Shown in pieces: positions 23,940 to 55,443 of a DNA stretch of 64,000 nt. The DNA is from Aurelia coerulea (Eukaryota > Cnidaria > Scyphozoa > Semaeostomeae > Ulmaridae). Position numbers and translations under genes: made by a program. The stretch spans positions 15,770,501-15,834,500 of the forward strand of contig CM076944.1 in the NCBI GenBank assembly GCA_039566865.1, written 5' to 3'. The notes beneath the pieces were generated by a model. The model worked only from the letters and a program-made list of their open reading frames with translations, was not told the origin of the DNA and did no database searches. Numbering within the stretch: position 1 is the stretch's first letter; the number at the start of each line of letters is the position of its first letter.

Positions 23940-23987
23940 TTACAATTTCCTTTGACGTTTCACAATTGTTTGACTACAATAGGTTGT
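23940..23987 (-). CDS. PWWP-protein gene, last coding exon
   Basis: The acceptor is a long T tract ending TTTTTTTTTGTAG just before 23987. The exon continues in phase 0 from the preceding exon and gives TTYCSQTIVKRQRKL before TAA at 23942-23940. A short basic C-terminus ending soon after the PWWP-associated helix is also what MBD5 has. The phase fit, strong acceptor and nearby ATTAAA support it; its shortness is the main weakness. Confidence 0.5.
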   Translation of the reverse strand, partial: TTYCSQTIVKRQRKL

Positions 23988-24330
23988 CTACAAAAAAAAA
24001 ATTCAATTTACCGACACTATAGCCTGGAATCATTGACGGGAGTGCGCTTGAAACATAAAATTAAGGTTTGATCAAACATCTCGACATCTTGACATAGCAA
24101 CTGTTTAAGTCAATTCGAAATATGATGCGGCTTTGCCGCAACAAAGTCAGACATTGTAAAAGTCAAGAAACATTTGGGCAGGGGTCACACCGTCAATGAC
24201 ATATCAAATCCTTCAATCTTTTGTTTTCCAGTAAAGCAAGACAGTACTTTAATTCTATCCATTACGGGCAATTCTACAAAATTAAAACTGGGCAGCAAAA
24301 ACAACGTACCATTAAGGGACCATCAGCTAC

Positions 24331-24385
24331 CTGCAAGGCCTCTGTAATTGCTTTTTCTAGACTCTCCGATGTCTTCTTAGAGCTC
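24331..24385 (-). CDS. PWWP-protein gene, 55-bp exon
   Basis: The acceptor is TTTATTTGTTTCAG|GAGCTC (exon from 24385) and the donor is TTGCAG|GTAGCT (exon end 24331). The first base completes an Arg codon with the two left over from the upstream exon; the rest reads SSKKTSESLEKAITEALQ, the only open frame of the three. This resembles the helix that follows the PWWP core in MBD5 (a basic linker, then an LE-AI-EA pattern). It ends in phase 0. Confidence 0.65.
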
Positions 24386-24666
24386 CTGAAACAAATAAAG
24401 AATCATGTTTTCGGTCACTCGTGCTTTGAGCCAATGATTTGACGAGATCCCGTGTGTTACATATAACTGCTTCTTTGTACAAATTGATAATTATAATAAT
24501 AACATTGAATTTCTTTAATTTTGCAGCAAGCTGGATAAATTACCGTGAGATAACATTATTTTGGCTCAAAATGAGCAACAGAGCAAGAAATTTGATGACC
24601 CTAACATGCCAAAAGTAATAGAAAAAGTCAAAAATACATGTGATGATGCAATATACATACAAGTAC

Positions 24667-24782
24667 CTGTTTTTCCTTCTTTTGCTGTTGTTTCTATATT
24701 CGTTCAAGCCTTCGTCTAATCTCTTAAGAGATCCTGTTTCCATTTGGCTATGGGTATGTTCGCCAAACCATCTTATCCATAC
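24667..24782 (-). CDS. PWWP-protein gene, exon with second half of the PWWP domain
   Basis: The acceptor is TGTAATTTGACAG|GTATGG (exon from 24782) and the donor is AAACAG|GTACTT (exon end 24667); length 116. In phase 0 it reads VWIRWFGEHTHSQ, the third and fourth beta strands of a PWWP domain (compare WVMWFG in relatives), then LKRLDEGLNEYRNNSKRR, an alpha helix followed by a basic run. It joins exactly to the exon at 55172, 30.4 kb upstream, which supplies the first half of the domain. The LK-L-EGL-Y pattern favours MBD5/MBD6 over DNMT3. Confidence 0.75.
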
Positions 24783-25249
24783 CTGTCAAATTACATAGCA
24801 ATTTCGTTAAGATTGTAATCTCAAACTAGCCTCACTCCATAAGGACCCTCAAGTTACGCTCATCTCATAGAGTTGAATTGGTGTTGTTGTTGTTGTTGTT
24901 GTTGTAGCTCCATTTAGGGCCATATTTCCCTGGAACCGTAAAACTGGACAAAAATGTCAATCGGCGACAGTTTTTCGTCGCCCTCGTTTGGAGATCAGAA
25001 TATGACCTGGAGGGCCTAGAGGAAGGAGGTTTTTGCAATTATGGCCAGAATGAACAGAAAGTTTTATGCTATTAAAGTTCTGGAACACTGCTTTTTGGTG
25101 CCTTTTAGGCCCAGCGGTCGTGAGAAACAAGTAGCAGGTGATTTAGGCCTAATAGATCTTTTAGCCATTCTAAAAAAGAGTCCGAATCGAACGATATCTT
25201 GATACATTTTGTAGAATGTTCGAATGTACACCATAGTGATAAGTCCATA
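24783..25249. other. Start of the 30-kb intron, non-coding
   Basis: Contains a (GTT)n run at 24880-24905 and the interspersed repeat at 25150-25215 shared with 22737-22810. Otherwise nothing is recognised. Confidence 0.5.
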
Positions 25250-25893
25250 CGCTGGGGTATCCCGTGGACATTTTTTGTGCCCGAATTAACTCTTCATAAT
25301 CGTTAACTACATCATTAGGCAAGTCAGAAAAACGAGGGTGGACGTCTGGGCGCGTGGTGGGTTTTCTGGAAATTGCGTCGAAAGATTGGACCCGTTTTGG
25401 TGATAATTCAATGGTAAAACATCCCATAAACGGGCTTTATGTGAGCAAATCTCACGATTTTCAACGCAAGTAAGCATCAGAATGGAGTTATTTGAAGAAC
25501 TAAACTATTCGAGACAAAAATAGACCCTGCTCATGAATAAATTGCTACTGCGCATGCACAGAAACGTGGAATTATCCAAAAAGTGGTGTCCTACGAAGGC
25601 ACTAAAGTATTTTCCTCGAACGAAGCGGTGCTCTTAGTTTAAAGTCACGCTACACACAGAACATGTACTTTTGATAGAATGTCAATGAATAGAACACAAG
25701 GAACAGATGTAGCTTCTGAATTTAGATGTTAAAATAAGAATGAACTTGGTCTAATTGAGAAATCCTGCAGAAATGCTCAGATGAGGGATTCATTTTGATC
25801 AATACAAAGCATTTAAAACGAGAAACCAAAAAAGAAGGAGAAGAAAGAGGATCCTCCTGTCCATTTGTCGATGATAAATTCCGTCATTAAACC
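25250..25893. repeat. Left arm of a 0.6-kb inverted repeat pair
   Basis: It pairs with 37097-37709 in opposite orientation. Shared words include GAATTATTCCACGTTTCT-type sequence near 25565, ACATGTACTTTTGATAGAAT near 25663 and GGATCCTCCTGT near 25849. On the minus strand the left arm is open for FDAISRKPTTRPDVHP and FSDLPNDVVNDYEELIRA (near 25385-25270), which looks like real protein; the right arm carries frameshifts and a stop there. Either a duplicated host or transposon exon, or the ends of a 12.4-kb element. Confidence 0.75.
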
Positions 25894-27610
25894 CTTGCCA
25901 GTAGAGGTGAAGTCGCTCTGAGTGTCAAGCAAAAGCAAGAAAAAGCTGCAGGCATTTGTACAAAGAGATGATTAACGGGCCCACAAGCAATGTTACTTTG
26001 ACATCCAGAAAGTGGTCAGTTATTTTTCATGAGATCCTCATTTTCGGTGGTGTTGTCGTATGATACCTCGCAGCTATTGCGCTAAAGGAGGCCGTACGCC
26101 TCCCCCGTCATCAATTTAGAAATTGTTTCCATGAATTTCCAAAGAAGATTACAAGGTTCGAATGAGAAGGCATTGATCCCAAAGACAAATCGTTAGTCTG
26201 TGTCAATTCCTGCGTGTAAAACCGGCAACCAATGCATCGTTGGAGAACGCACGCTCAGTTACTAGACAAATAACTCCTTAAGTCCAAATGAGGCAAGCCA
26301 GAAAAAGGTCTCACTGGCCACATAAGAATAAACATTTTTCTGCATTAAATCATTAAATGCAATAACACCACGGGGAGGGGGGGGGGGGGTTCTTGACTAT
26401 ATTTCAGATAAGGGTATGCCACCAGCATCTTCAAAATGATACCGTTGGCAACATAGAGAAAATAGAGAAAAGGACTAATCAATTTGTAAAATTCGTGAAA
26501 ACGAGGCCAGGTTTGGAACCGGTCAACGTTCAGCTTCCGCTTCTAAGAAGGCCGGGAGAAAAGGACTAATCAATGTGGAGCTCGACTTGGAGAAGCCCTT
26601 TGCAGATTCGTGAAATCCATTCTAACTGACTTGGAGGAAAACAAAATGGCCAAAAAGCATTTTCTTTCCGTTCAAAAAAGTTTATCAACTGGCACTAACT
26701 GAAATTTCTTCATCCTGATATTCTTTTTATTTTTAATTTTGGTAGTATTGTAAGTAGGTTTTTGCCACGGCCCCCTGAAAAGCAGCCACTCTTGGTTGAT
26801 GGGGCCACCGTGTATAAAGAATTTAAGATGAAAATGAAATTGAAATTTAATTTCCTTTTTTCGTTTGGATAGGAATAATTAAACTTAGGTTTTTTTTAGG
26901 GAATTTATCTGACAATGTATTAAGTAGAATTTGGAGTTTATTGAGTAATTAATTTTTTCTTTTTCTTTTTGTTTTTCTTTTCTGTTTTAACAGGGCACAT
27001 TGTAAAGCAGTTTCTTTTTCCGTATGAACTGAATGTTTTTTACCCTGTATAAATAATTTAAAATGAATGAATGAAAAATTATTGCTTGTGCTTGTGATGC
27101 TGTGATGTTTGCGTGTTGTTGCCAAGAAAATCTACAGTCGGTCCTCATTGGAATGATTTCTCTATGCCCCCATTTGCAATGTGCATTGCAAAGAATTCAT
27201 TGCAAAGAATTCTGCTGATAAATTTGCAATATGAAGCTATTTTTGCAGACAAAGAAACCTTTTGATTTCCGAATTGGAATCGTTTCGAATGGTAGAGGGC
27301 AAGGCTAACATATGGTTCAACGAACCTATGGTTCAACGAAATCATGTTAAAACTGCCAAACCCTCTGCATGGGATGTATCAAGTTTTTCAGCACCTCCAG
27401 AATTTCAGAGAACATTTGCTTTGATCTATTGATCCAACGATAACACCATATCTAGAACTTTAGCCTTTACTAAAAGACAATGTAGCTGAATTTGGGTAAA
27501 CTTTTACAAAAGGCTAAATGTGTAATATACACCTGTGAGCAAGACATTTAAAAAGAACCCACAATATAAATTCTTGTTGTTCTTAATCTTGCTACCAAAT
27601 CTTCATTAAA
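25894..27610. other. Intronic sequence with LINE-tail-like remnants
   Basis: Around 26770-26845 (GCAGCCACTCTTGGTTGATG, then GTGTATAAAGAATTTAA) and 26995-27075 (GTAAAGCAG, then CTGTATAAATAATTTAAAAT) the sequence resembles 3' ends of LINEs with ...TATAAA(t)AA tails. A G17 run with one A lies at 26373-26390. No coding frame. Confidence 0.35.
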
Positions 27611-29400
27611 CATTGGAAATCATCATCATCATCATCATCAAATTACGCTATTACGTCAGTCCCTGACATTGCGAGCCTGATAATTCCACTCCAAGTGTTT
27701 CTATTATTTGCTAGTTTCTTTAATTTGTTTGTGTCTTTTACATTCAGGCCTTGTCCTCCTAGATCTTTATCGATGAGGCCTAACCAGGTGAGTTTTGGTT
27801 TGCCTTTGGGTTTCTTCACAGGTCTTAGTGCTTCATATAGGGCTTGTTTGGCTGGTGTTTCCTCTGGCAGTCTGAGCCAAATGTCATAGCCAGCTTAATC
27901 TTCTCCTCTTAATTTCTTTGCTCCACTTTTCTACTTTTGTTATATCATAAAGATTCTGATTTGAGATGACTCTGGGCCATCTTATCTTTATTATTCGCCT
28001 TAGTTGTTTCCTTTGAAAAATATCTATCTGTTCTTCTTGGGCTTTTGTTAAGGTCCAGAGTTCACAGTTGTAGAGAAATACACTAGTAACATATGTATCA
28101 AATACTCTAATCTTTGTATCTATGTTCAACTTCTCGGATTCTATCATGTGTTTCAGCTTGTTACAGGTGTGTATGGCTAGTCCTTTTCTTCTGGTAATGT
28201 CTGACTGTGTTTCCAGCAGACTTCCTAGGTATTTGCATTTTTTCCACTCTTCACTTCCATTCCTTGTTATTTTATACTCCTCTGTTTTTTCTCTATTAAC
28301 ATTTAAATTTCTTTCCTTGAGTTTGTTTGGTATTTGATTTTTGTACTTTTCTATGATGTAATCTGAATCTGATATGTAGCTTATATCATCTGCGTACTGT
28401 TGGCTTAATTCAAAGTGATTATTTTTCGGTCTTACATAAGTGTGATCTTTAAGGTGGTGTGGTAATAGTTCTTCGGCTGCTACTACGGGTCTAGCATAAC
28501 TATGATCTTCATTTCTGGGTGGTTTAAGGGCTTGCGCAAGATATAGAGTGAAAAGTACTGGGCTTAGACAGTCTCCTTGTGGTACGCCAATATTTGTTTT
28601 GAAAGTTTTACCTTTTTCCTTATTGATCTTAACTTGCAATTCCACATCTTTTATAAGAATACTCATCATGTGCAACTCATCCTCATCCAGAATTTCTTTG
28701 AGATCTTCATACAGAGTGGCTCTTTGCACTGTATCAAATGCTTTACTCATATCTAAGAGCAATAGATGTGTAGTGTATGTTTTAGATGTGATTGCTTTTT
28801 CTGCTAGTGTTTTGAAACTAAATACCATCTCTGTTGTGCTTCTTCCTTCTTTGTATGCTGCCTGACTTAGTGGAATATTTTCTTGGAAATGTTCTGATGT
28901 TCTCCTAAGTATGCATATTGCAAGTATCTTTCTCAGAGTGGAAAGTAATATGATTGGTCTTAGGTGCCCTGTTGGTCCAGGTTTCTTTCCTGGCTTAGGC
29001 AAAGGTATTAAGATGCCTTTTCTAATTTCTTTTGGGAATTTTCGGCTTTTTTGCAATATTATTCAGGAGTTCTGCTATGCCTTCATATATTTTCTTTGGC
29101 CCATATTTGATTAGCTCAGCTTTTATATCATCACACCCAGGACTTTTGTTTCTTTTGAGTGATTTTGCTGCTCTCTCTACTTCAAGAGCACTGAAAGGTA
29201 TGCGCATTTCTTTGGGTTTAACATCTGGGAATTGCTTTTCATTTTCATTGTAGAAAACATTTTGAAAGAAATCTGTTATGATCTCACACTACATTTTTTC
29301 ATCTGTGACTAGGCCTGTATGTCCTTCAACTACTACTTTTTGTTTTCTTTTTTCACTTGATATCTCTCTAATAACTTTGAACATCTTTGTAGAATCATTT
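27611..29400 (-). mobile_element. RTE-like non-LTR retrotransposon 1, 5'-truncated
   Basis: Minus-strand element ending in (ATG)n (the ATC run at 27617-27640), a usual kind of 3' tail for RTE-like LINEs. The coding region is described separately. The upstream limit is about 29400, where LINE-like codons (KMFKVIREISSEKRKQKV) stop. The endonuclease is lost. Confidence 0.7.
27660..29400 (-). pseudogene. RTE-like reverse transcriptase 1
   Basis: Reading down from 29400: linker; AAKSLKRNKSPGCDDIKAEL (finger domain); a frameshift near 29040; LIPLPKPGKKPG; LRPIILLSTLRKILA; AAYKEGRSTTEMVF; motif A LLLLDMSKAFDTVQ; motif B GVPQGDCLSPVLFTLYL; motif C QQYADDISYISD (catalytic DD intact); then a thumb with CKYLGSLLETQSDI and FLYNCELWTLTKAQEEQID. 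A second frameshift near 27895 is followed by RLPEETPAKQAL and KGKPKLTWLGLIDKDL. The core of 390 codons (29056-27887) is open. An in-frame TAG near 29290 also breaks the 5' part. RTE-type by motif style and tail; the exact clade is not certain. Confidence 0.75.
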
Positions 29401-29873
29401 CATAGAAATATTGGAAAGGAAAGTGATATAAGTAAGAAAATATTTGATTGATCTGACAAGTGCCAAAAAGGATTTGTGAAAGGGCTACCACTGGCAAGTT
29501 ATCAGCTGTAATGGGGCACAATCTTGATGAAACTAGTTAATAATTTATGCAGACCAGCTGCTCTGCTATTCCATTCTTTTGTCCTGAAGCACATTCTTAC
29601 TTCCCAAGTACGACTCATGTTTGCCCCAGTAAGGATAATCTATCATATAAATATGAAACTGGAACATTAAATGATGTGAAACTTATGCTGGGAAGTGTAG
29701 GGAGAAATACTGTATTGCAAGCAAAACTCTTCGTAAAGAGTGTTGCTGAATTTCACTGATGATTCTGAGTGTAGAATTAGCTGAATTTTGGAGTTTTGAA
29801 AATTGAATGCATAATGTACTTGGCAAAAAGTAAAATCAAAGGCATCATTTGAAATGTCTAAAGACTGTCTGTG
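29401..29873. other. Unassigned intronic sequence
   Basis: No coding or repeat signal recognised. Confidence 0.3.
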
Positions 29874-30216
29874 GGGGAGGGCGTACTTCATTGTTAAATG
29901 ATACCGGATGTGCTGCATATTTGAGTGGGGTTTTCATCTGAAATTCCCTACACATTGGTCTGTTTTTATCATAATTCTGGTAGATGGGTAGTTTTTTGAG
30001 AATTTTCTCATCAATGGGGTCCATAATGATGATTCGCATCAAACAACTGAAAATTTCCTTTGTATTTTGCTCGAGAAATTCATACATGGGTCAGAAAATT
30101 CCGGATATATTTATGCAAATTGGTTTTAAATTCTTGAATATTCCGTCATACAATTGGGTCCTTTTCTCAAAGTTCAGATACAGATCCAACCATGTTCACA
30201 ATGAAGTACCCCCCTG
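29874..30216. mobile_element. Possible MITE with GTACTTCATTGT ends
   Basis: Left GGGAGGGCGTACTTCATTGT and right (reverse complement) AGGGGGGTACTTCATTGTGA form an imperfect inverted repeat of about 22 bp. No target duplication is clear. No coding. Confidence 0.35.
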
Positions 30217-32750
30217 GGGTACTGCTCTATCCGTCATAAGTATTACTTTTCACAAAATTCATACTGTATCTAAAATTTCCGGCCTTTCTTGAAAAATCAA
30301 GGTAAACAAAGTAAAAAGCAGTCATAAAATAGCTTGTTTTCTTTGAAAAGCTCAAGTTTCTTGCATCGATTAGCTCTTGCATCAATTAGTCATTTGACCA
30401 AAAGGAATATGTGAAGTAATTCTTTAATCATTTTGAACTGTTGATATTTGTGAAGAACAAACAAAAGTGTTATTCTGATAAACAGGTTTCAATCAATGTG
30501 TATAAATTTCATGAAAAACAACATTTTATGAACAACAACTGGATTCATTGATTTAAGACCACATAAGCTTCAATGTAACAAAAGAGAAAGTGCAATTCTA
30601 GCCAATGGGCATGGCATGTGCTTGTCAATCATAAATTCAACACTACACAATTGATTTTCCTTTATACTTCTTCTTGGGAAAATGTCTCAAGTTCACTTTG
30701 AAACCTCAATCACATCACAACAATTTCCAAATGGTTCAAAGAGGAGGCTGTTTACTTGCAAAATCTACTGGGTTCAGAAAACCTCCTGTGGTCCATTGAA
30801 AGAGGCAGAAAATCCCAATATTCTCACATGAACCAGATGATGATAAACCTGCAAAAAAGTGATAAAAATTGGATTGTGCAGCTGGTAACAAATGTCTCAC
30901 AGAGGACTGGAGGTTGTCAGAATTAAATTCAAATTTTCAACAAATTCCTGAGAAATAAAATTATCATTTAATTGGCAAGTATCACGTTGGTTGATTTCAC
31001 TTAAATTTCTGACACAAAATCAGAAGAAAATGCAGAAAATTAAAGATCAAGTTAATCTTATCCCCATTAGCTCAAGTGTGCATTTGGCTTAGCAATAAAT
31101 CCTTTACAAGCTGTGGTTCTTTGAATTATAATATTTGTTTCATATCAGACACTCAGTTGACATTTTCAATCCATTTCATCTGTATAAAAATTAATACCAG
31201 GTGGCCTATTCAAAACACACAGGCCTACCATATAAACAGTAGGAGGTGTACAGTAAAAATGACCATCAGATACCAAGTTTTCAAAGCGAAAATAAAGAAG
31301 TTTGCAAATTTTCCTGGAGAATCACAAAACACTGTCGTGTAAAGAAACATGTTGACTACCATTTTACGAAGTTTCATTGAGTGGACAGGTGGGGATTTGT
31401 TTCTGGAAATATTTTTATGAAGGGTAGTTGAGGGGCCACCATTTTCGGCCTAAACGTGCTTGCTTGCAAATCTTCTGAAAAAATTTCTTGCTGGGATAAA
31501 AGTCTTGAATCAATTACAAAAACCCAAAAGCAGGGTGTTTATGCTGTCTCTTGAACAATTCTGAGCCTCAAATTCCAAGAACTGTCACGTCAGTGTTCAT
31601 TTGATTAGGAAGAGGTCTTTTTGCCGGTAAGTCGAGATACTATGACTTGAGCAAAGTAACAGGTTTTCACAAGTATTTTGCAAATTTTCCCAGATATCCT
31701 ACCTTGTCCGCCATGTTCGTTGTATCTTCAAGTTTTGTTTTCACGAAGTTTGATTGAGTGGACAGGACCAGTTTTTGGACAATATTGATTTGAAGAAATC
31801 TCCATTTTGTGCGAAAACTCCATGAATTTGGTCACAGCAACTGAGACATTTTCCGAAGCTTCTTTGATGTATATTTGGAGATCTTCTGCTTTGGCAGCTT
31901 CGCCAACCTCCCACGAGACTGTTTTGATTTGAATCGGGCGAAAATTTTGGCGCGCAGACGGCGATCGGGTGCTAAAACCAGAGTCTGGCATCCGCCAGCT
32001 TCAATCCGGCCCGCCATGTTTTTCCTTGGGAGGAAGTTTGCGGCCAGCCTCGTTTTGCATTTCTTCACTGTGTTACCGTTGGCTAGACCAATTTTTGTGA
32101 AACTGATACCCTTGACCAGACTAAATTCTACATAAAAAATACCACGAGATGTCGTTTCCTACACAAAAATTGCCAAATTATTGCCTTCTCTTGTCCAAAA
32201 TCGCAAAAGTGTCAGATTTCAAGAAACGAATTACGAAAATTTGACATTGCCTTAACCAAACTTGCCAAAGAATACTAAAGTTGCCAAAAAGTATACCCTT
32301 GGCCAGAGTTGGAGTTCGAAAAAGTATATCCTTGTGAACGGCAGATCCCCAAGTACCTTTAATATGGAAGAAACCCCTCCCCTCCCCCCTCAACGAATAA
32401 AGGGAATAATCACACGGGCAAGTGAAACGAAGCAAGCAGTGGATTAAATACTAAAGTATGTGTCAACGGGTTTGGAATGATTGCAAACTAGTTAGATTAG
32501 AAAATAATTCTGAAGATAGCGTCAGAAAGGAGAAGCATGCTATAGCGGCCTTTTGTGACCAAATGAGCATAGAAAAGTGATTTTATAGATATTCATGATA
32601 AAATTAGCCCTTAACTGGAGACAAATTTGTACGGTGTTTCCCAAACTGTAAATCTCAACTTATGTGACAATTTTTTTGACGATTTTATGTCGAAAAGACA
32701 AATGGCATTTCTTCCTAATATATAGTGGATTCCTTCACAGGGATAAGCCA
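30217..32750. other. Intronic sequence, no gene recognised
   Basis: The phrase ACGAAGTTTSATTGAGTGGACAGG occurs at 31366 and 31745 (a local duplication). 31920-32060 is GC-richer with several CpGs and an unmatched basic minus-strand frame (MKKCKTRLAANFLPRKN from 32068). I see no splice sites around it that make sense. Confidence 0.35.
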
Positions 32751-33666
32751 ATTGAAAGTACAAGATCTGCTATTCATTCTAATTTGCAAGCTTCTCTCTC
32801 TCTTCATCGGTTTACACGCATGCGTGCGTCCGTGTTAGCCATCAGACTTCTCCACTGTTCTCTGTTGGTCGTCGTTCTTCTGAATACATTTCTGCTCTGC
32901 TCAGTCCATTTCTCCATGTCACTTAGCCACGATATCTGTGGCCTTCCTTGCTTCCTTTGCCCGTTGTCGTTTCCTTCAATAATTAACTTTTCCAAGCTGC
33001 CTTCCTTCCTTATCATGTGCCCAAACAGTCTCATCTTTCTTTTCATGATGTTTTTACGTAGCTGGAGTTGTCTTTTACATTTCTGTAGCACACACGCGTT
33101 TGCTTTCTTTTCACGCCAAAAATATTCTCAAAATTCTTCTATAGGCCCAAATTTCAAAAGCATCTATTTTTTCATCATTTTTTCTTCAAAGCCCAAGATT
33201 CACTTCCATAGCTCATAACAGGAAACACAATTGTGTCAATCAATCTTAACTTTAGTCTTGTACTCACGGCTTTGCTCTTCCAGATTTTTTCCATTTTCAT
33301 TGTAGCGCCCTTTGCCATTCCTATTCTTCGTTTAATCTCTTCAGTGCTGTCTCCTTTGAAATTAATGGTTCATCCTAAATAAACAAAACTGCTTACTTCC
33401 TCCAACTCATCATCGTCTAACTTAAAACCTTCTCTTGTTTCTCTGTTTTCATCTACCACCATAATCTTTGTCTTTTTTGCATTCAACAACAACTCTATCT
33501 CTTCATTTTCTCTCTTTAAATCGCTTAACAGCTTTAACAATTCTTCTTTGCTGTTACATATCACAACCGTGTCATATGCAAATCTTAGATTTGTTATCTT
33601 TTCGCCTCCAATCGTTATTCCACCTTCAAAACCTTCCAATGTTTTCCTCATGATATTTTCGGCATA

Positions 33667-34278
33667 CCGGGTGAGCCATAAAAAAGTTCCCACTTTTGAA
33701 AATTCATAGCATCAAGAGTACTTCACAGATTTAAATGATTCAAATTCTAATTGAAAGCCGAAAGATCAAAGTAGTTTTGTGATTTTTCTCGCTGTCTTTC
33801 GAGCACTAGAAATGCAGGTAAATTCAACTTTACAAAAATTTCATGGTTGCAAAATGACTAAAAAAGGGCTTAAAACATTGATCAAATCATAAGGCACTCC
33901 TCACACACAACAATAAAGAAAATGAGAGATATCCTCTGCACATTTATTGCCATGGGATTTAAAATCTTTAGTATTTGTTTGAAAATCAATGTATTATAAC
34001 ACATGAGAGAGATGAAATGCCCATTGCGTATTGTTCTGCGCGAGGAGAGTATTAACGATTTGATCAATGTTTTAGGCCCTTTTTCAGTCATTCTGTAACC
34101 ATGAAATTTTTATAAAGTTGAATTTACTTATACTTCTAGTGCTGGTAAGACGGCGAGAGAAATCACAAAAATATTTCGATTTTTCGTCTTTTAACTAGGA
34201 TTTGAATCCTTCAAATCTGTGAAGTACTCTTGGTGCTGTGAATTTTCAGGAGTGGGAACTTTTTTCTGGCTCACCCGG
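33667..34278. mobile_element. 612-bp MITE with CCGGGTGAGCC ends, TA target
   Basis: Left CCGGGTGAGCCATAAAAAAG and right (reverse complement) CCGGGTGAGCCAGAAAAAAG; the inverted repeat extends about 84 bp with few mismatches, through AGAGTACTTCACAGATTT. TA flanks are 33665-33666 and 34279-34280. On the minus strand, excision rejoins SLCNI to YAENIM, in frame. The ends resemble those of the 5767-6401 element but the interiors differ. Confidence 0.9.
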
Positions 34279-35194
34279 TATATGTTACACAAGGATTGTG
34301 ACATTATGCAGCCTTGTCTCACCCCTCTCTTCATGTTGAACCATTCTGAATTAACATAGGTAGCTCTGACTGGAGATTCCTGATCCTTGTATAATTTAGC
34401 AATAAGAGTTATTAGATGCGCAGGAAAACCCATTTCCTGCATTGTCTTCAACAACTTTATGTGATTTACATAGTCAAATGCCTTTGCATAATCTATGAAG
34501 CACATGTAAAGAAGTTTTTTGTGATTTCCACACTGTTCTATGATGTTTCAGATCCTGACTATCTGCTCACGTGTTCCCTTCCCCTCGTTAAAACCACCTT
34601 GCTCTTCGGCTATCTCAAATTTATAATTTGGTCTAATTTTTAATGTTATCACTTTCAAAAGTATCTTGCCAGCATGGTTGATCAAGCTAATCGTTCGATG
34701 ATTTGCATATTCCTTCAGATTTCCTTTCTTCGGCTATGGATAAATACTGCTCTGCACCGATCCATTGGCCACTCTCCACTTTTCCAGATTTTTGTACATA
34801 AGCTCCACGTTATGTCAATGCTAAATTCACCTAATTCTTTCCACAATTCAATTGGAATGTCATCTGCACCTGGTGCTTTTCCTTTCTTCAAAACTTTCAT
34901 TGCTTCCTCGATCTCTGATCTTAGAGGCGTTGATTCTATCTAATCCAGATTCAGGTCAATTTTAGCTTCTTGTTGGTCAGTTTTGTCGTATAATTTACTG
35001 CAGTATTCTCTCCATGGATCTTTAATTGCTTCTGCTTCTGTGAGCGTGTTGCCGTTCCTGTCGTTGATAACATCTAATTTTGTTGTCCCTTTCCCAGTGA
35101 TCTCTTTTAGTACCTTATAGACTTTCTTTGGATCACAGTTCGCTTGTTCTAATTCTTGACACTTTCCCTCTAGATCTTCCTTTATTGTCTTTAA

Positions 35195-36250: not shown

Positions 36251-37096
36251 ATTTTGCACTTCTACCGTGTAACTTTCTGGAATCTCTTGGAGATCATATC
36301 ATATCGTATTGAGCATACAGCTCAAATCCTTATTGGGTGCTGAAGCACGCGGACATCATCCAATTTCACGGTGCTCAGCCAATCGAATCGCCGCTTTCTA
36401 ACCCCCCGATATCAAATTGGTCGTTGGAAGGGAATTCTTGAGTACCCTCACGAAAATTGAAATGGCTACTAAGTTACAATAATTACATGTAATTATTTTT
36501 TGAAAAATCGGTAGAAGAGATGCCCCTTTGCAGTTTGTAGCGTGCGTGGACAAATATCTCATTTGGAGCCGAAATTGTATTCACTTTCCGGTCGACGAAT
36601 ATTGACCTTCGAACTAACCCAAACACTTTCCCTTCTTTTATATTAAAAGGCGATTGATAAAATTCGCTACAAATAAGATATAAGGATAAAATCTTAGCAA
36701 TTATGGATAATTTGTTTCGTTCCGTCTTTCTCTGCCCTAAGAACTAATACAAAGTAAAAACACTTTGCACTCCTTCTTTTATATATGAAAATCTTTTTGG
36801 CTGCTTGGTAATTTGATGAATAGATTTTACACAAAACAGCAAAGCAAGAAACAGTTTTGAAAGCAGCTTTGTCGTATCTATTCTTGAATCAATCCAATCA
36901 AACAAAAGGAACAAAGCTTTAAACGTTTAGCGCAGAAAACAAATTGCATTTTCAGATGTATCTTGATGTTTGCTACTAAAAACTGGCAAGCTAGAGGAGA
37001 AAGATAATCAGCCACAAGAGATCTCAAGATACTCACTGCACAAAAAGGCCCCAAGTTGGCTGCTTGCATTTACATGCGGAAGAACTTGGCAAGACG
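36251..37096. other. Unassigned intronic sequence
   Basis: AT-rich; no repeat or coding signal recognised. Confidence 0.3.
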
Positions 37097-37709
37097 GAAT
37101 TTGTCATCGGCAAATGAACAGGAGGATCCTCTTTCTTCTCTTTCTTTTTTGGTTTCTCGTTTTAAATGCTTTGTATTGATCGAAATGAATCACTCATCTG
37201 AGCATTTCTGCAGGATTTCTCAATTAGACCAAGTTCATTCTTATTATAACATCTAAATTCAGAACCTACATCTGTTCCTTGTGTTCTATTCTATCAAAAG
37301 TACATGTTCTGTGTGTAGCGTGACTTTAAACTAAGAGCACCGCTTCGTTCGAGGAAAATACTTTTAAGCATTCGTAGTACACCACTTTTAGAATAATTCC
37401 ACGTTTCTGAGCATGCGCAGTAGCAATTTATCCATGACCAGGGCTTTTTTGTCTCGAATAATTTAGTTCTTCAAATAACTCCATTCTGATGCTAACCTGC
37501 GTTGAAAATCGTGAGATTTGCTCACATAAAGCCCGTTTATGGGATGTTTTACCATTGAATTAACGCCAAAACGGGTCCATCTTTCGACGCAATTTCCAGA
37601 AAACTTACCACGCGCCCAGACGTCCACCCTTGTCTTCTGACTTGCCTAATGATGCAGTTAACGATTACGAAGAGTGAATTCCGGGCACAAAAAAATGTCT
37701 ACAGGATCG
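37097..37709. repeat. Right arm of the 0.6-kb inverted repeat pair
   Basis: Reverse complement of 25250-25893 with scattered differences. The frame that is open in the left arm is broken here by small deletions near 37580 and 37640 and a stop near 37675. Confidence 0.75.
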
Positions 37710-40645: not shown

Positions 40646-40654
40646 CGAATTTAC

Positions 40655-41165: not shown

Positions 41166-41174
41166 CGAATTTAC

Positions 41175-43558: not shown

Positions 43559-43560
43559 TA

Positions 43561-44345
43561 ACAGATCAAACTCATTTCTAGCCTTCTCTAGGATTGTAAA
43601 ATCTTCCAAATTAACACAATGGCCTGTTTGTTTGACATGTTCCCTAATGGCCGAAGGTGATGACTTAATAGGCTGACCTTTTTTCCTATTCCTAAATGTT
43701 CCCTACTTCTAATTAGCAAGTGGCGAGATGTTTTACCTATATAACAGGCCTGGCAACCTGAACACGAGTACTTATATACAACATGGGAGCAAATATTCTT
43801 AGGAATGCGATCCTTAAAGGGGAAATAGTTTTCAATACGTCTACCTGAACGAAAAACAACACGAAATTCGACGCATGGGTAAGCCCTACGCAGTAAACTG
43901 GATATATTGCGTTTAAGTTGAAGGCTAATTTGGCCTAAGTAAGGCATATAAAAGCACAAGGGCATTTTCTGGACCGTGGTAGGCTTAAGTCTGGGATCAA
44001 ACTGGTTATTCAAAACCCCCTAACAAAACGGTCAACTAAATGTTTAGGATAACAATTATCGTGCAATACTTTCTTAATAAATAGTACTTGCTTATGAAAG
44101 CCAATATAAGTAGAGCATATATGAAGAGCACGATACAGTAAGACTGTAATAAGATTGGTTTTGTAGTTAATAGGAATCAAGCTGCTAAAGTCCGTATAAA
44201 GCCCAGTGAATGTTTTTTTACGAAACAAATTAGTAACAAAAGTTGAACCATCCCAAGTACAAAACCAAGACATCCAAAAAGGATAACGAGTTGTTTTCCT
44301 CCATGTCATACGTAAATCTTATATTCTGATGTTGTCCGTATCACT
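43561..44345 (-). pseudogene. PLE-3: Penelope-like RT C-terminus plus GIY-YIG endonuclease, truncated
   Basis: Minus strand from about 44345. It reads IRFTYDMEENNSLSFLDVLV (with a frame change), then TNLFRKKTFTGLYTDFSS (post-motif C region), YKTNLITVLLYRALHICS, a frameshift near 44012, then LKPTTVQKMPL and the endonuclease VVYKYSCSGCQACYIGKTSR with HLLIRSREHLG. It ends in EDFTILEKARNEFDLL at the DNA-transposon junction (43559). The GIY (VYKY), YIG (CYIG) and following Arg are recognisable. It belongs to a subfamily different from PLE-2. RT motifs A-C are missing, so it cannot function. Confidence 0.75.
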
Positions 44346-45487: not shown

Positions 45488-45702
45488 GGGGAACGGGGAA
45501 CGGGGAACGGGGAACGGGGAACGGGGAACGGGGAGAGGGGAGAGGGGAGAGGGGAGAGGGGAGAGGGGAGAGGGGAGAGGGGAGAGGGGAGAGGGGAGAG
45601 GGGAGAGGGGAGAGGGGAGAGGGGAGAGGGGAGAGGGGAAGAGGGGAAAGGGGGAAAGGGGAGAGGGGAAAGGGGAAAGGGGAAAGGGGAAAGGGGAAAT
45701 CC
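45488..45702 (+). repeat. Heptamer minisatellite AACGGGG to AGAGGGG to AAAGGGG
   Basis: About 7 AACGGGG units are followed by about 15 AGAGGGG and then several AAAGGGG or slightly longer units, so the array shows a one-way succession of variants. Purine-only on the plus strand, so it may form unusual DNA structures. Open frames rich in GERGEGR are by-products. Confidence 0.95.
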
Positions 45703-46086: not shown

Positions 46087-46259
46087 CTAGCAAACGAAAT
46101 ACGTACATTTATTTACTGCTAGTAGCGAGATATTCGATTTAGATTAGTTTCAATTAGACGCTAGAATATAATTGAATTAAACTAAGATAACAAACAAAAC
46201 AAAGCCCTACAATGTGCAGACGTCACGAGGCGCACAACAGCAACAACAACAGAAACTGA

Positions 46260-46855: not shown

Positions 46856-47094
46856 TAGAGTTTTGTTCAGTTCCATAGCCTGTGTAGGCAACAGTTTCAT
46901 AGCATTAGACAACATCTTCCAACATTCTAGAGTCTTTCTCTTAATCCAAAGTTCATACCCAGGACAGATTTCATTCTGCTAGCTACGGGCGGAAAATTGA
47001 AATAGTTGCAAATGTGCACTTGCAAGCAGTTGGTAGATACCTGATGGTAATGGGGGTGCCCCTCGCAGCAATTTTATCTCCATAATACATGTAT

Positions 47095-47470
47095 TTTATA
47101 AAAGAAACTGCCTATAAGAAACTCAAATCTCAGATGGCCTAAAAAGTAAGAAACTCCAGTACTGAGAAAATGTAATTTAAGAAACTATTTATTTTGAAGA
47201 AGGGAATCCTTAACATCTTTTATTTTATTTTCACTCGTTTCCTGTTTCATACTACTCGGGTGGTACTTGAGTAAGTCTAAACATTGGAAAGGCTTCAAAA
47301 ACTCTATTTTGAAACGTTCAGGGGGGCACATGTGGTGAACATGAAGGTTGTTATGGAACTTTTAAGAAAACGGTAAGAAACTTCTAGCACTCAAAATCTG
47401 ATAATTTTAAGCAACTATTAGTACTGGCCAAAATTCTTAGTTTCTTATAAAAAATACGTGTATGCCTGTG
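47095..47470 (+). repeat. Interspersed repeat R1, copy C
   Basis: Contains AACATTGGAAAGGCTTCAAA, GGGGCACATGTGGTGAACAT, CAAAATCTGATAATTTTAAG and TACTGGCCAAAATTCTTAG. Together with copy B it brackets a short spacer, so this region may be a local duplication of R1. Confidence 0.6.
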
Positions 47471-47883
47471 CCGCGAGGAAAAGGTACATGAATGTCGTAA
47501 CTCTCAGTATTGCATGTTCTGAATGTTCTGAATTTACATCTGTTCTGAACGTTGTGCTGAACAGTTGCTTATACAACGGTAGAGAGAGAGACAAAACACT
47601 ATTTTGGAGTACATTTTGCCATTTCGGCTCGAGTATTTTTCATGTTTGAAATAGATTCGTGTGGGCCATGCCTTGTGGATGAAGTAAGTTTCATGACTGA
47701 AAATTCGTACACAACAGGCCGAGAACTGTGCCGCAATGAAGTCATGACATCTGAAGACCAAACCAAATGATGTGAGAATTTAATTGAAAGGGAAGGTATA
47801 GGAATATCTACAGCTGAGAAAGGTATGCATTCCCCAAGGAAAGTTAAAAAGTTCAAATAAAACAAATTGCCTTTAAAATGTAC
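47471..47883. other. Unassigned sequence between repeats
   Basis: No recognisable feature. Confidence 0.3.
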
Positions 47884-48082
47884 CGTTCTCCGTTTTTCGT
47901 TCTCCGTTTTTCGTTCTCCGTTTTTCGTTCTCCGTTTTTCGTTCTCCGTTTTTCGTTCTCCGTTTTTCGTTCTCCGTTTTTCGTTCTCCGTTTTTCGTTC
48001 TCCGTTTTTCGTTCTCCGTTTTTCGTTCTCCGTTTTTCGTTCTCCGTTTTTCGTTCTCCGTTTTTCGTTCTCCGTTTTTCGT
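47884..48082 (+). repeat. 14-bp minisatellite CGTTCTCCGTTTTT
   Basis: About 14 near-perfect units, each made of two related heptamers (CGTTCTC and CGTTTTT). The reverse complement contains CGGAGAA, one base from CGGGGAA of the array at 45488. Open frames in several registers are artefacts of the 14-bp period. Confidence 0.95.
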
Positions 48083-48603
48083 TCCCTGTTTTAAAAATAG
48101 CCAATCAGCAATCAGTAAACAGAGATTTATTACCGGTCATTATTTCCAACTGATGTAATAGCGTTTGAAACTGCTCCAGATTCTAACATGATGTTCTTTT
48201 ATTGCTTCAGAATAATACTTGCAACTTTGTTAAAGGCAACGTTCAGCCGCGTAAACATTCTTATCAAAATATGCTGACGTGATGCTGGCGGGGGGCCTCG
48301 AGGGGCGCGCGGTGATTGGCAGAATTTAACAGATCACATGCAAACCAAAGTTTCAGCTCCGAAAGCGCAATCGCAAGTAGGTCAACAGTCTGCTTAGATC
48401 GCTTCCTTGCCCGTGTCACGTAGGGTTGGCATGGCCCCCGCAGAGCCGCGGTACTCATTAACTTTTCTCATTTTATCAATATTTATACACGAAAAAAAAC
48501 CTTTCAGCGTATTTACAAATTATTTCAAAGAAAAAATTTTAAAAAAAATTTGTAAATAATTTAGATATGCTGCTCTACCAAGGGGTCGTGTTCGGGTCGT
48601 GTA
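48083..48603. other. Unassigned; an AT palindrome near 48510-48563
   Basis: TATTTACAAATTATTTC pairs with a downstream ATTTGTAAATAATTT across an A/T-rich loop. It lies at the 3' end of CR1-A and may be part of its tail. A CpG-rich patch at 48290-48450 has no gene I recognise. Confidence 0.35.
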
Positions 48604-48606
48604 GGT

Positions 48607-49865
48607 TCAAAGATACTTTCTAAAACCTGTTTTAAAACGAGCGATTGATTCTTGTTCTCGAATGTTGTCCGGGATATCATTCCAATTTTTGACACCAGAG
48701 AAGTAGAAACTTCGCTTTGCATATTCTAACCTAACTTTGGGAATTTGCAGATCTCCATGATTTCTGGTTCTATGCTCTGAAATCATGGATCTTTCAGTGA
48801 ACTTATGGCGAAGATTTTCGGGACAAAGGTCATGCAGAATTTTATATGTCATGACTCCTTTGTCAAATGAGAGCAAAGACTTTACATTGAGCCATTTACA
48901 GTTTCAACCGTCCTTATATTTGGCGTCCAGTATTAGCTTCTTTGCCCTTGTCTGTAGTCGTTGCAGTTGGGATAGTTTGGTGTTGGAAAGAGTACTCCAA
49001 ACAATGTCGCCATAGCGAAGGTGGCTTTCAAAGAGAGCTTTGTAGACCTGGTCAAGTTTCCTTTGCGGGAAGGATGTCTTTCAGCTTTCTCAGGGAGCTC
49101 AAGCCCCCTTTCAGCTTGTTTTTTGATAGTTTTGTACTGCTCTTTCCAAGTAAGGCTTTCATCGATGTTGATTCCTAAATATTTTGTCTTGTCAACCCTT
49201 TTGATAACTTCATTATTGAGGACAAGATCTGGCAAATCATCACCTACCCTATTCAGTTGTCGCCTATGGCTTATAACCATATATTTACTTTTGCTGGCAT
49301 TCAAACTAAGTTTATTGATCCTCATTCAGTTCGATATATTTTCTAGCTCGTTTTTCAAATCTGTTAGAAGTTCATTCAGGTTTTCCGACGCGATATTCAC
49401 ACCTGTATCATCGGCATACATATTTGGGTTCATGCTTTCCAGACAGTTCTCAAAGTCATTAATGTATAGTATGAAAAGCAAGGGTCCCAAACACGAGCCC
49501 TGCGGAATACCACACTTTATGCTGCTTATGCTGGAGCTAGATCCATCAAAATAACAGAACTGCTCCCTATTGGTCAGATAAGAACTGAACCAGTCGTGGG
49601 AAGTACCGTCGGCACCATACTCTCGTAACTTTGACAATAAGATTTTATGGTCAACGGTATCGAATGATTTTTGAAGATCAAGAAATATACTCAAGTTTAT
49701 TTTATCCTCATCAGAGTTCTTGAACCATGGGTCTATAACATTCAATAGACATGTCAGTGTACTGTGCAGTTTTTGAAATGCAAATTGGTTCAAACAAAGT
49801 TTGTTTTGCTCTTTCAGATACTCCATTAATTGGTCGTGTGCAATTTTTTCTAATATCCTCGACAC
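48607..49865 (-). pseudogene. CR1-A reverse transcriptase, C-terminal part
   Basis: Motifs in order: QFAFQKLHSTLTCLL, motif A FLDLQKSFDTVDHK, motif B GIPQGSCLGPLLFILYIND, motif C NMYADDTGVNI (catalytic DD intact), then a TGA at 49326 where Trp is expected before MRINKLSLNASKSKYM, then YLGINIDESLTW, a frameshift near 49080, and the tail TYKILHDLCPENLRHKF with VKNWNDIPDNIRE to 48607. Apart from the nonsense codon and frameshift it is readable, so this is a moderately young copy. Confidence 0.8.
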
Positions 49866-49877
49866 AACTGACCATCC

Positions 49878-52800
49878 TGTTCAAAATGCATCAGAAAGAA
49901 CCAGAGTAGTGCTGTTTGCTTCAACTGCAAGCTGAAGTCTCACTTGAAATGTATGACAGATCGTTTTGCTGATAACTCAGAAGAGCTTTATTGCAGAACT
50001 TGCAGTGTCGACAAATTTCCCAATTTAGAGAGTGAAACCCCCGAAGAATGGGTACACGAAGAGCTAGATAGTTTCTGCAGTAAGAACAGGGGTCTTAAAT
50101 TTTTCCATCAAAACATAAATGGGTTACTTTGTAAAATAGAGAAAGTCAGGTTGCTACTAACGGGGACTCACCGAAACATCCATGCATATGGCCTAACGGA
50201 AACCCACTTGCACCGTTCAGTACTAGATGAGGAGCTATACATAGACGGCTACACTCTTGAGCGGGCAGACAGAGGTAAAGGTCATTACGGGGGCGTTCTC
50301 TGTTATATTCGCAATGACATTCAGTATCATAGAAGGAGAGACCTTGAGTCCCCTGGTCTGGAAGCCATCTTCATTGAAATTTTCATCGTAAAATCAAAAT
50401 CCATCTTGCTGTGTTTTGCCTATAGACCCCCTGATAACTCGGCCTACAGCGACAGAAACTTCACAGCGAAATTCCAAGAAATGCTTGAATTAGCAACAAA
50501 TGAAAATAAAGAAACCATTCTTGCTGGCGACTTAAATTGCAATTACTTGGTCCCTAATGATCATAAAGAAATAAAAGATGCCCTACGAATCAATGGATTC
50601 AAGCAACTTATCCAGTCACCAACAAGGACAACAAGGAAAACAAAAACGCTGATCGACATTATTGCAACAACAGATAAAACTAAGATTTGCAACTCTATTG
50701 TCCATGCAAATTCATTTAGTGATCATGATCTCTCAGGAATTGTTAGAAAAATGCACGTGCAAAAGTTCGTCCCAAAGACAATTTTAACGCGAGATTTTTC
50801 AAAATACAATAAAGAAGCTTTCAAAGATGACTTGCAGAACGTTGATTGGATAGAAGTCTTACAGACTGGACAAATCAACGAGAGAATAAACGCAGGTTGG
50901 GATTTATTCAAGCAGAAATTAACAGCAGTGATTGATCGCCACGCTCCTTTCATTGAAAGACGTAAACGAGGGCGTAGCTGCACGTGGTTAACCAAAGAAA
51001 TAAAGCAAAAAAATGCACGAGAGGGATTACCATCTTAGGAAAGCAAGGCAGACTGGTTGTGAACGTGAATGGTCAGCTTACAAAAGGCTACGTAATGCAG
51101 TAACGAAAGAAATCCGGCAAAGCAAAGCCAATAGCTGCCGAAAGATGTTCCGAGACAACATAGAGAAGCCAAAAGACTTTTGGAAACAAATTAAGCGATC
51201 ATATCCTTCAAATAAGAAAAGTCCAACATCTAATGTGCTTCGTGTTGAAGGTGAACTTGTTTCTGATAAAAAGAAGATATCAAACGGATTCTGTTCCTTT
51301 TTCACCAACATTGGGTCTTCCCTTCAAAGAGATGCCTCTACGTTGAATAGTAAAACTTGGCAATTTTTCAATGGAAAACCAATTTCTACACAGATCAACC
51401 CGAAATGTAACGTATTCAAGTTCAGGACTATAGAACTGAATGAGATAACAACAGCCTTAAGATCAATAAAGGTTTCCAAATCTGCTGGTCCAGATAACCT
51501 ACCTGCACAACTTATAAGGGATGGTGCTGAACAGATCGCGGCAATTTTATACTTTCTAGCAAATCAAAGTCTACGATCAGGATCTTTTCCGAACAGCGAG
51601 AAATGTGCAAGACTGACTCCGATTTACAAATCTGGTGAAAGGTCCAACTTTGATAACTACAGGCCTATTTCTGTATTAAACATCCTATCTAAAGTGCTAG
51701 AGAGACTTGTTCATCGACAACTCTCAGAGTACCTAGAACGTAACAACCTCCTTTCTTGCAGTCAGTTTGGGTTTCGACGAGAACGATCAACGCAGCATGC
51801 AGTAACTCTTTTCACTGAACACATCCGAAATAACATGGAACAGAGTCGCTGCACAGGCGCATTATTTATGGACTTACGCAAAGCTTTCGATACTGTCCAT
51901 CATGGAACACTGCTTGAAAAGTTAAGATGTTATGGCATACAAAATACAGAGCTTGATTGGTTTGAGGACTATTTATTCAACAGAAAGCAGTTTGTCTGCT
52001 AAGATCAATCAACATCACAAACTGAGCAAATAACATATGGGGTACCTCAAGGATCAATCCTTGGGCCTCTCCTATTCATCATTTTGATCAATGATGTTCA
52101 TTTGGTATTGGACAAATGCAAAATTCTTATGTATGCAGATGACACAGTGATATTCTTCTCGGAAAAATTGGTAGAGGCTGTTGAAGAAGTCCTGAATCAA
52201 GAGGCAAACTTAGTTGGTAAATGGTTTGCGAACAATAATCTAATACTGAATCTCAAAAAAGGCAAAACTGAACTCGTTATCTACGGTACAAGTCAAAAAC
52301 TAGCGAAACAACCGTCATGTAATGTCTCTCTGAATGGCACTCCGATAAACCAAACTACGAGCTATGAATATTTGGGAATCACCCTTGACAATCACCTAAC
52401 AATGAGTATGCAAATTGACAAGATCTACAAGCGAGCCTTAAGTCGAGTAAAACTCCTGCAAAGAATTCGTCCCAACATCTCTCCACTTGTTGCGGAGAAA
52501 ATATATAGCGTTATGATAAGGCCTGTGCTACTCTACCGCTATCCCATTTATCTAAGCGTAGGTGAAAGTGCCAAGAAAAGGCTGCAGTCAATCCAAGACA
52601 GAGCCCATAAGATCATAGCTCCTACTAAGTACACGACCCTGAAGATGGACACATTGGATCAAATCCGGAAAAAACGAGTATCGATCGACGTGTTTAAGTC
52701 TTTAAATGATTCTTGCCCTCCACCACTGCGAAACATGTTTCAGCGTTTTAATCATGGCAAGGATACACGAGGAAACGGCTCACGTCTTATATTGCCAAGA

Positions 52801-52935
52801 GTTAAAACAGAAGCAGGAAGAAAAACATTTGCCTTTCAAGGTGCACTAATTTTTAATGGATTGTCATCCGACCTTCAGAACGAATCTTTCTTTGTAAACT
52901 TTAAACGCAAAATAGATAATCTAAGCTTTGCATGA
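49878..52935 (+). pseudogene. CR1-B polyprotein (PHD finger, APE endonuclease, RT)
   Basis: The frame is open from 49872. PHD-like C4HC3 ligands: CSKC, CFNC, H, C, then LYCRTC (49878 to about 50003). Numbered from M49944, the endonuclease has FFHQNING (53-60), LTETHL with E86, AGDLNCN (194-200), TLIDII (235-240) and SDHDL (259-263), all catalytic positions present. A one-base shift in an A7 run near 51007 changes frame. RT: SAGPDNLPAQL, YRPISVLNIL, FGFRRERSTQHAV, motif A FMDLRKAFDTVHH, a TAA at 52000-52002 after KQFVC, motif B GVPQGSILGPLLF, motif C MYADDTVIFF. The C-terminus ends at the TGA at 52933. Role: the endonuclease nicks DNA and the RT copies element RNA onto it in the nucleus. Confidence 0.85.
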
Positions 52936-53053
52936 TAATCGTATAGTATTTTAGCTTTTAAATTTTTTACTTTGTCAACAGTTTCTTTAAACAGGACCCT
53001 TATTGATAGCAGTACTTTACTTTGTACTGAAAAGGTGTATCCTGTATAAATAT

Positions 53054-53054
<1 letters not shown>

Positions 53055-53099
<45 letters not shown>
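53055..53099 (+). repeat. (ATT)n tail of CR1-B
   Basis: Fifteen ATT units follow CCTGTATAAATATGT, marking the 3' end of CR1-B. Confidence 0.95.
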
Positions 53100-53100
53100 G

Positions 53101-54414
53101 TACTGAAATAGGCCGGTAATTGTTTACATCTGTTTTAGCGCCCGCCTTAAAAATTGGTGTTACTCTGGCTAATTTCCAGGTATGGGGGAAAATACCCCTT
53201 TCTAAAGATGCATTGTGGATTAGTGTCAGTGGTTTTGACACAAAGTCTACAGCATCTTTCAATATTTTGACGGGGATTCTGTTAGCACCAGGAGATTTGG
53301 AGTTATTCAGGGCTCTTATAGCGCGTTCTACATACCCTATGCTTACTGGCTGTAATTTAAATTTGGTACCATTGGAGTTGTTTCTAATGTATTTAAGAGG
53401 GTCATCAGAAGGGTGACTTTTAATTTTCTCCGCTAACTTAGGTCCAACCGTTGTAAAATGTTTGTAGAAAGCTTCTGAAATTTGCGAGGATGATTTAAGC
53501 TCTGTACCTTCAAAAAGGATGTTTTGAGTAACAGTGTGACTTGAGTTCTTATGCAAAACCTTATTTATTGCTTTCCACATAGCCTTCGGATTGTTTTGCG
53601 TTTCGTCAATAAGGTTATGGTAATATTCCTGTATCCTTGTACGAAGTTGATTAGTGACTTTGTTCCGCAATTTCTTATAGTCTGACCAATAGGAAGCATC
53701 TTTCTCAGATCTCTTTTTAGCTAAATCACGTTCCTTCGTCAGGCTTTTTAATTCGGCTGTAATCCAAGGAGCATGATGGCTAGTTGCCTTTCAACGCTTT
53801 AGTGGTGCATGCACCTCTAGAAGAGACGAAATAACACTATTAAAAACGGAGGCCATGAGATCAGGGTCACCATCAGTCGGAGCAAGAATCTCGTTCCAGT
53901 CAATGGCTGACAATTCGTCTAGGAATAGCTGCTTATCGCAGTTTCTAAGGCTACGCGTTTCGACTAGTTTTACTTGCTTATCTATGAGTCGCTTTGCATT
54001 TATTTTCCTTATTGCAAAGATAAGGTAGTGATCCACCATCCCTAGCTTTAGCACATTCGCTCTCAGAATGTAATTTGGGCGATTTGTGGCAAAGTGATCT
54101 ATGAGAGTCTTGGAAGTATGGGGAGCACCATCTTTCTCTAGAACAGCTACCCTAGTATATTCATTTATTTGCTGTTCAAATTGGAACTCGGAGTAAATTG
54201 ACTTTATGCTTTTGGTGCACCTATCGTTGCGATTTTTGAGATCACAGTTAGTGTCACCGATCAAGATGATCTTTTTACCCTCTGCATCTACAGCTGAGAG
54301 TAGGTTCCTTAATGCCGCAAAACTCTCCTGGTCATTGCCCTGCGAGGGGGGTCCGTACCAACAAATGACTAAAGACTTGACACTGACAGAATATTTCTGA
54401 GGATTGGCCAACAA
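53101..54414 (-). pseudogene. CR1-A endonuclease and RT, N-terminal part
   Basis: From 54414: CWYGPPSQGNDQ, IGDTNCDL (endonuclease Asp/Asn), TLIDHFATN, MVDHYLIF (the family has SDH, here VDH), LEVHAPLKR. After a frame change, WKAINKVLHKNSSHTVTQN, ISEAFYKHFTTVGPKLA, SKSPGANRIPVKIL (N for the usual D) and NNYRPISV at the junction. The first half of the endonuclease is missing, so this is a 5'-truncated insertion. Two possible losses of conserved residues (VDH, GAN) fit a decaying copy. Confidence 0.75.
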
Positions 54415-54420
54415 AAAATA

Positions 54421-55165
54421 AAAGATCAGAGTTTTGAAGATACTTCAGAGGCAAGGTTTTGAAGAGCAAAATGAAAACTATCGCGCTTCACACGGTTTTA
54501 CCCACATTTAGAAGATCCAATGTTGTTCGCAATCAAAGACGAAAAGTTTGGCGTGACCCCTGCCTCAGTAATAAAAGTTCGGCACTGTTTAAGAACAAGC
54601 TACTGTCGCTTTGCTAATTTATTTGCAATGATAGTTAAGAAATAGAAATACAATGATGACACAATGACTTGAAATTAAGACGTTAGCGTATTTGGCAAGG
54701 ATCAAGATCCCAAATAATGGGCCTTATTCAAAATCAGTTTTCTTCGAATTTGAGCGCTCTTTTAGAAAAAGCCGAGAGGACATTTAAAGATATTAGTACT
54801 GAGTTCAAAAACATAAATTTTTCCTGAATTTACCTTATAGTCGTTTCCACGATCCGTCCAATGTGAGGGGTACTGTCTCCCGTCGATTCCTTTGTTTATT
54901 TGACGTCATGGTCACATCTAATTGGCTAACGTGCAATTGTAAAGTTGTAAAGATCCGGTTCGGCTCTACCAAAAAATTATTTGCCCTTGTTTATCTTTGT
55001 AGCTTTCAAAATTTCAATAATATATTTAGGGGCTGTTTTCCTGATTTTTGAGGTCTTCAAAGACCCATTGCTAACCATGATCATTCCTGGCACCCACGTC
55101 GACGTTTGTGTTATCTAAAAGTTGTGTTTGGCTCGTGTTATCTAAAAGTCATAATGGGTAGTGCT
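54421..55165. other. Intron sequence next to the PWWP exon
   Basis: No exon or repeat recognised. TCTAAAAGT(T/C) with GTGTTATC is repeated near 55110 and 55135. Confidence 0.4.
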
Positions 55166-55171
55166 ACTTAC

Positions 55172-55443
55172 CTTGCCTTCTCCAGCGTGAGGTTCGTTGA
55201 TATCTGACTCCTGAACAATTTTTCCTGGCCATGCACTGTACCCCTTCTGATGTCCCCATATCAGGTCCCCAATTCGAAAACTACTGATGTCTGGCTTGGA
55301 AGAGCGAGACGATTTATCATTCATTTCAGGAGTGGGGGCACGGCTGTCCTCACTGGCAGCGTTGCAATCCTCGTTACATCTTAAATTCATCTCCTCTTGA
55401 TCTGCACTGTCAGGTGACCCGGTACCAGACCCTTTTGGCATAC
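55172..55443 (-). CDS. PWWP-protein gene, exon with first half of the PWWP domain (MBD5/6-like)
   Basis: 272-bp internal exon: acceptor TACTGACCAACAG|GTATGC (exon from 55443), donor GGCAAG|GTAAGT (exon end 55172), a perfect donor. From ATG 55441 it reads 90 codons: an acidic, Ser-rich linker (1-52), then SSFRIGDLIWGHQKGYSAWP (53-72) and GKIVQESD. This is the start of a PWWP domain, which binds methylated histone tails and DNA in the nucleus; the PWWP signature is SAWP here. The exon ends in phase 0 after Lys90 and continues in the exon at 24782 (VWIRWFG). Start Met is probably internal. MBD5/MBD6 fits best; DNMT3 or NSD-type is less likely. Confidence 0.78.

Follow-up and report, generated by a model that had tools for sequence, protein, structure and literature searches.

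Do two halves of a PWWP domain that lie 30.4 kb apart, with transposon remains between them, belong to a single host gene? The question is raised by a stretch of 64,000 bases from the scyphozoan jellyfish Aurelia coerulea (contig CM076944.1, here C2, positions 15770501-15834500; 37.7% GC), which is referred to below as the window. A preliminary description, made from the letters of the window alone, had drawn four minus-strand exons, E1 to E4, joined in phases 0, 2 and 0, and had placed one half of the domain in E1 and the other in E2. We find it almost certain that a scyphozoan gene of the MBD5/MBD6 type lies with its 3′ part in the window, and that its exons E1 and E2 are parted by a phase-0 intron of 30,389 bases. 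A model of this gene is already public as the predicted protein P0013, and the work reported here is thus a confirmation of the earlier reading and not a discovery.

Results

A PWWP domain divided between two distant exons

Exon E1 (55172-55443, minus strand; phase 1 at its start and phase 0 at its end) encodes a conserved linker and the first part of the PWWP domain, comprising two strands, and exon E2 (24667-24782, minus strand; phase 0 to 2) encodes the second part together with the beginning of a helical, basic tail. Exon E3, as first drawn (24310-24385, minus strand; phase 2 to 0), encodes a C-terminal helix. Each of the three is preceded by AG and followed by GT with agreeing phases, as had been claimed, and the intron between E1 and E2 occupies 24783-55171 on the same strand. 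Beyond the E1 donor the frame stays open for nine codons before it reaches a stop (55142-55171).

The profile search of the joined exons that had been proposed as a check favours the join. Against the Pfam PWWP profile (PF00855, curated cut-off 25.6 bits) the open frame of E1 alone scored 27.6 bits over profile positions 1-33 and E2 alone scored 16.2 bits over positions 39-75, under the cut-off, while the two joined scored 56.9 bits (E 3.1e-15) over positions 1-91 of 93. Within the whole 1265-residue gene model described below, the domain was found at residues 1154-1244 with 52.0 bits.

The two halves and the C-terminal helix are present in one chain in the 143-residue metagenome protein P0003. 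When this protein was compared with the window by tblastn, the leading matches listed were E2 (6e-16), E1 (6e-13) and E3 (0.002), followed by a next match at E 0.11; this ranking indicates that these three exons are more than a product of chance. In the whole 574-Mb genome, P0003 found four places at E <= 10, the best two of which were E2 and E1, the third a PWWP on contig C4 with 36% identity and the fourth a weak match on C9. One of the observations named beforehand as speaking against the join was a closer second half of the domain lying between the exons; no better second half than E2 was found, either among the tblastn matches listed for the window or among the seven genome candidates scored.

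An AlphaFold2 model of P0003, built with three sequences (P0003, P0013 and P0014), reached a mean predicted local distance difference test score (pLDDT) of 68.9 and a predicted template modelling score (pTM) of 0.58, with two of the five models alike in confidence and the other three at only 38-42. It has strands at residues 31-35 and 41-47 before the exon join at residues 61/62 and strands at 61-66 and 72-76 after it, so that in the predicted fold the intron cuts the PWWP domain, typically a five-stranded barrel, between the second and third strand.

A seven-exon gene of about 120 kb

A further 80 kb upstream of the window was used for model building. It contains a 1021-residue open frame, largely of low complexity and without a Pfam match, as well as a frame that encodes the second half of an MBD-like region; an exon with the first half lies 39 kb beyond. 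The resulting minus-strand model has seven exons of 86, 332, 2868, 272, 116, 76 and 48 bases with agreeing phases, encodes 1265 residues and includes introns of 38962, 2085, 43980, 30389, 281 and 322 bases. We take the gene to run from an ATG at C2:15914256, beyond the upstream edge of the window, to a stop near window position 24274, giving a span of about 120 kb, of which the preliminary description covered only the 3′ part. Because the ATG of the first exon directly follows a splice acceptor, at least one more exon is likely further upstream. At 30 kb the intron between E1 and E2 is not of special size, since the same gene has two longer ones and it ranks third. The average gene length given for A. 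coerulea is 13,449 bp (PMC13243523), which this gene far exceeds.

In the protein predicted from this model, exon A would supply the first half of the MBD-like region and exon B the second half and a basic stretch, exon C (2868 bases) would form the long low-complexity middle, and E1, E2 and E3 would add the linker, the PWWP domain and the C-terminal helix. Ordinary splicing would take out the 30,389 bases that separate E1 from E2, with the transposons inside them as presumed passengers of the pre-mRNA.

Only after this model had been built was P0013 found, when residues 1110-1250 of the model were compared with proteins of similar length and two of 193 candidates were returned (P0013 and P0014). 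P0013 is a EukProt protein of 1261 aa named 'Seg831.3_Seg831.7 ... GoldUCD ... Methyl-CpG-bin...', in which 'Seg' scaffolds and 'GoldUCD' point to the Gold laboratory's Aurelia genome, and its name suggests a possible merger of two models of one scaffold. Of the 1260 positions that align with our model it is identical at 1234, which bears out the view that this is a host gene, and it shares the joins A-B, B-C, C-E1, E1-E2 and E2-E3, with E1 unbroken; scattered substitutions and the C-terminal end after DGPLM, with the E3-E4 join, are where the two differ. As a predicted protein carrying the identical E1-E2 join, P0013 stands in for spliced reads as evidence of that join.

P0014 (LOC135682357 isoform X2, 1314 aa), an uncharacterized protein from another scyphozoan, Rhopilema esculentum, matches the model at 185/447 positions (41%) at the start, 157/307 (51%) in the middle and 87/147 (59%) near the end, and differs from it in 82 extra residues before the MBD-like part and in its C-terminus. 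A comparison with NCBIfam returned no family for P0013 and, for P0014, a single match at the level of chance. All three of P0003, P0013 and P0014 are continuous across E1, E2 and E3.

The relatives P0001-P0012, drawn from two listings of ten each, comprise P0003 (continuous), P0011 (the E2 half) and ten proteins with the E1 half, including P0001, the window's own E1 frame. In nine of these ten the likeness stops right after GKV and in the remaining one (P0010) right after GNV, an ending that would look like read-through of a GT donor. The read-through frame, as P0001, occurs in 7 public contigs, none longer than 1445 bases. We take P0005 (E1 half) and P0011 (E2 half), both listed with a longest contig of 355,974 bases, to come from one contig of another species. 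A short form of human MBD5 is described as arising by intron retention (PMC2917364), which makes a jellyfish form without the whole PWWP domain worth considering.

Kinship to MBD5 and MBD6

From the order of its parts and from its relative P0014, and not from its own MBD score, we conclude that the gene is probably of the MBD5/MBD6 type, as had been proposed from the helix and basic tail. It combines an MBD-like start with a PWWP domain near the end. In P0014 an MBD is followed by a PWWP, both above the Pfam cut-off, the MBD region scoring 28.9 bits when cut out and 23.4 bits in the whole protein against an MBD cut-off of 21 bits. Human MBD5 isoform 1 is described with the MBD at the start, the PWWP at the end and the bulk of the protein between them (PMC2917364); the order is the same here, a likeness of domain order taken from that description. 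Residues K52 and C57 of the model (TCKCGLECPL) stand as far apart as K61 and C66 in MBD6, a likeness of spacing; those two MBD6 residues are reported to be both required for ASXL binding (PMC9523997).

The 3′ end of the gene

The fourth exon is the part of the preliminary model that was not upheld. E4 (23940-23987, minus strand) follows an acceptor preceded by a T-rich run, fits in phase and ends in a stop; in P0013 the frame instead continues past the E3 donor as far as a TAG, so that E3 as the last coding exon would extend over 24274-24385. The end of P0013, LMVRCFCCPVLIL, matches the E3 donor read through to the stop ending at window position 24274, its terminal residues DGPLMVRCFCCPVLIL being the read-through itself. 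P0003 ends in SEAKKPRN and P0014 in SEAKKPKR, neither of which resembles E4 or the read-through end, and a last exon of this SEAKKP type, sought over 44.4 kb downstream of E3, gave no pattern match and a best tblastn E of 0.32. That the gene nevertheless ends in E4, or that E4 and the read-through are alternative ends, we consider unlikely.

Two tandem arrays of a 160-base unit lie just downstream of the 3′ end of the gene, at 18699-19288 (3.7 copies) and 20993-22043 (6.6 copies).

Contents of the intron

The intron between E1 and E2 had been described as packed with transposons. Ten of its frames were scanned against Pfam, 48933-49325 and 53791-54444 being left out, and seven proved to be retroelement-like; the frames described as Penelope-like had no Pfam match. 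On the minus strand, reverse transcriptase (RVT_1) frames lie at 27887-29062 (93.2 bits), at 33373-33711 and 34194-34547 (30.0 and 43.8 bits; together spanning 33373-34547) and at 49329-49880 (82.7 bits). On the plus strand, against the gene, there are a frame with an endonuclease like that of long interspersed nuclear elements (LINEs) at 49872-51035 (Exo_endo_phos_2, 35.0 bits) and LINE-like reverse transcriptase frames at 51004-52002 and 52003-52932 (RVT_1, 69.0 and 54.9 bits). No retroelement match was found by Pfam in 43591-44019, 44013-44318 and 53020-53790.

At least 4450 of the 30,389 intron bases (14.6%) match other DNA, in a comparison with 171,474 bases only. Segments 25259-25885 and 37093-37707 are 92% identical in opposite directions, and 33664-34281 matches its own reverse complement at 79%; judged by these sequence matches, the pair and the single segment may be DNA elements that have inverted ends. 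The intron also contains two arrays built of 14-base units, at 45495-45699 (about 14.5 copies) and 47884-48092 (about 14.9 copies). A search of the window against Rfam yielded nothing at the gathering threshold.

Outside this intron, a long plus-strand frame upstream of E1 (58710-59711) has by eye the look of a Copia-type integrase, and Gypsy-like frames, also recognised by eye, lie on the minus strand in the first intron of the gene (G000:C2:15891614-15894025, in L012 and L013). Transposable elements are reported to make up 71.48% of the A. coerulea genome (PMC13243523).

Discussion

Several observations weigh against the gene model and its assignment. The E1-E2 join is carried by P0013, which is a predicted protein and leaves E4 unused. 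The intron of the other relatives is placed from the point at which frames part, in protein sequences only. The MBD-like region scored 17.1 bits when cut out and 11.9 bits in the whole of P0013, both under the cut-off; the MBD was not listed at E <= 1 in the Pfam scan of the whole 1265-residue model; and no MBD was matched among solved structures by the region, nor among Pfam profiles or solved structures by its second half alone. The nearest solved structures to the PWWP domain, by sequence and by fold, are those of DNMT3B and DNMT3A, the fold comparison being a Foldseek search with the middling P0003 model, whose best matches had a template modelling (TM) score of about 0.53.

The distance of 30 kb and the retroelement frames within it would suit an account in which E1 and E2 come from different genes, or are pieces of pseudogenes, and complement each other by accident. 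We hold this to be highly improbable, as P0013 joins the two at identical bases, P0003 and P0014 run through the join without a break, and the candidates scored in window and genome offered no other second half. The resemblance to DNMT3B and DNMT3A could likewise be read as a sign that the PWWP domain belongs to a DNMT3-type DNA methyltransferase rather than to an MBD5-type gene. The jellyfish protein resembles these enzymes in the sequence and predicted fold of its PWWP domain, but the methyltransferase domain is missing from the 1265-residue model, in which PWWP is the sole Pfam match over cut-off, and the part upstream of E1 is MBD-like. A closer DNMT3-type PWWP exists separately on C4 (locus L004, G000:C4:30679391-30679519), where it lies in one exon, scores 60 bits to DNMT3B and is unbroken at the point that matches the intron. 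The DNMT3 identity was rejected on the missing methyltransferase domain and this separate C4 domain, and has very little left to recommend it. An MBD5/MBD6-type gene, its PWWP domain divided by the 30-kb intron, is therefore the reading that we retain, and the preliminary observation and its interpretation were right apart from E4.

What such a protein might do can be sketched by analogy. Within the BAP1 complex of human and fly cells, the MBD is reported to bind ASXL through the PHD finger of the latter (PMC9523997), and in zebrafish the MBD of Mbd5 is described as also binding Asxl1, the PWWP doing so very weakly (PMC11077058). Both the MBD and the PWWP of MBD5 are described as needed for chromocenter location in mouse cells, and none of the methylated DNAs tested in that account was bound by MBD5 or by MBD6 (PMC2917364). 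By analogy with human, fly and zebrafish, the jellyfish protein may use its MBD-like part to bind the ASXL PHD finger within the BAP1 deubiquitinase complex, and its PWWP part may contribute to placing the protein on chromatin.

A narrow literature search for MBD5 together with Nematostella, which cannot show absence from print, found no paper, and cnidarian MBD5 may for this reason be little described. Whether an MBD5-type protein with both an MBD and a PWWP, the latter interrupted by a phase-0 intron whose position several jellyfish-like relatives share, predates the split between jellyfish and vertebrates is to our minds an evenly balanced question. The gene on C2 is an ordinary chromatin gene, a relative of MBD5 and MBD6, and its importance beyond the locus is small: it provides a jellyfish gene of the MBD5 type with a seven-exon model that has been checked, and it illustrates how transposon-grown introns spread one gene over 120 kb. 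If the early origin is true, a chromatin-reading subunit of the BAP1/PR-DUB deubiquitinase would be older than the bilaterians.

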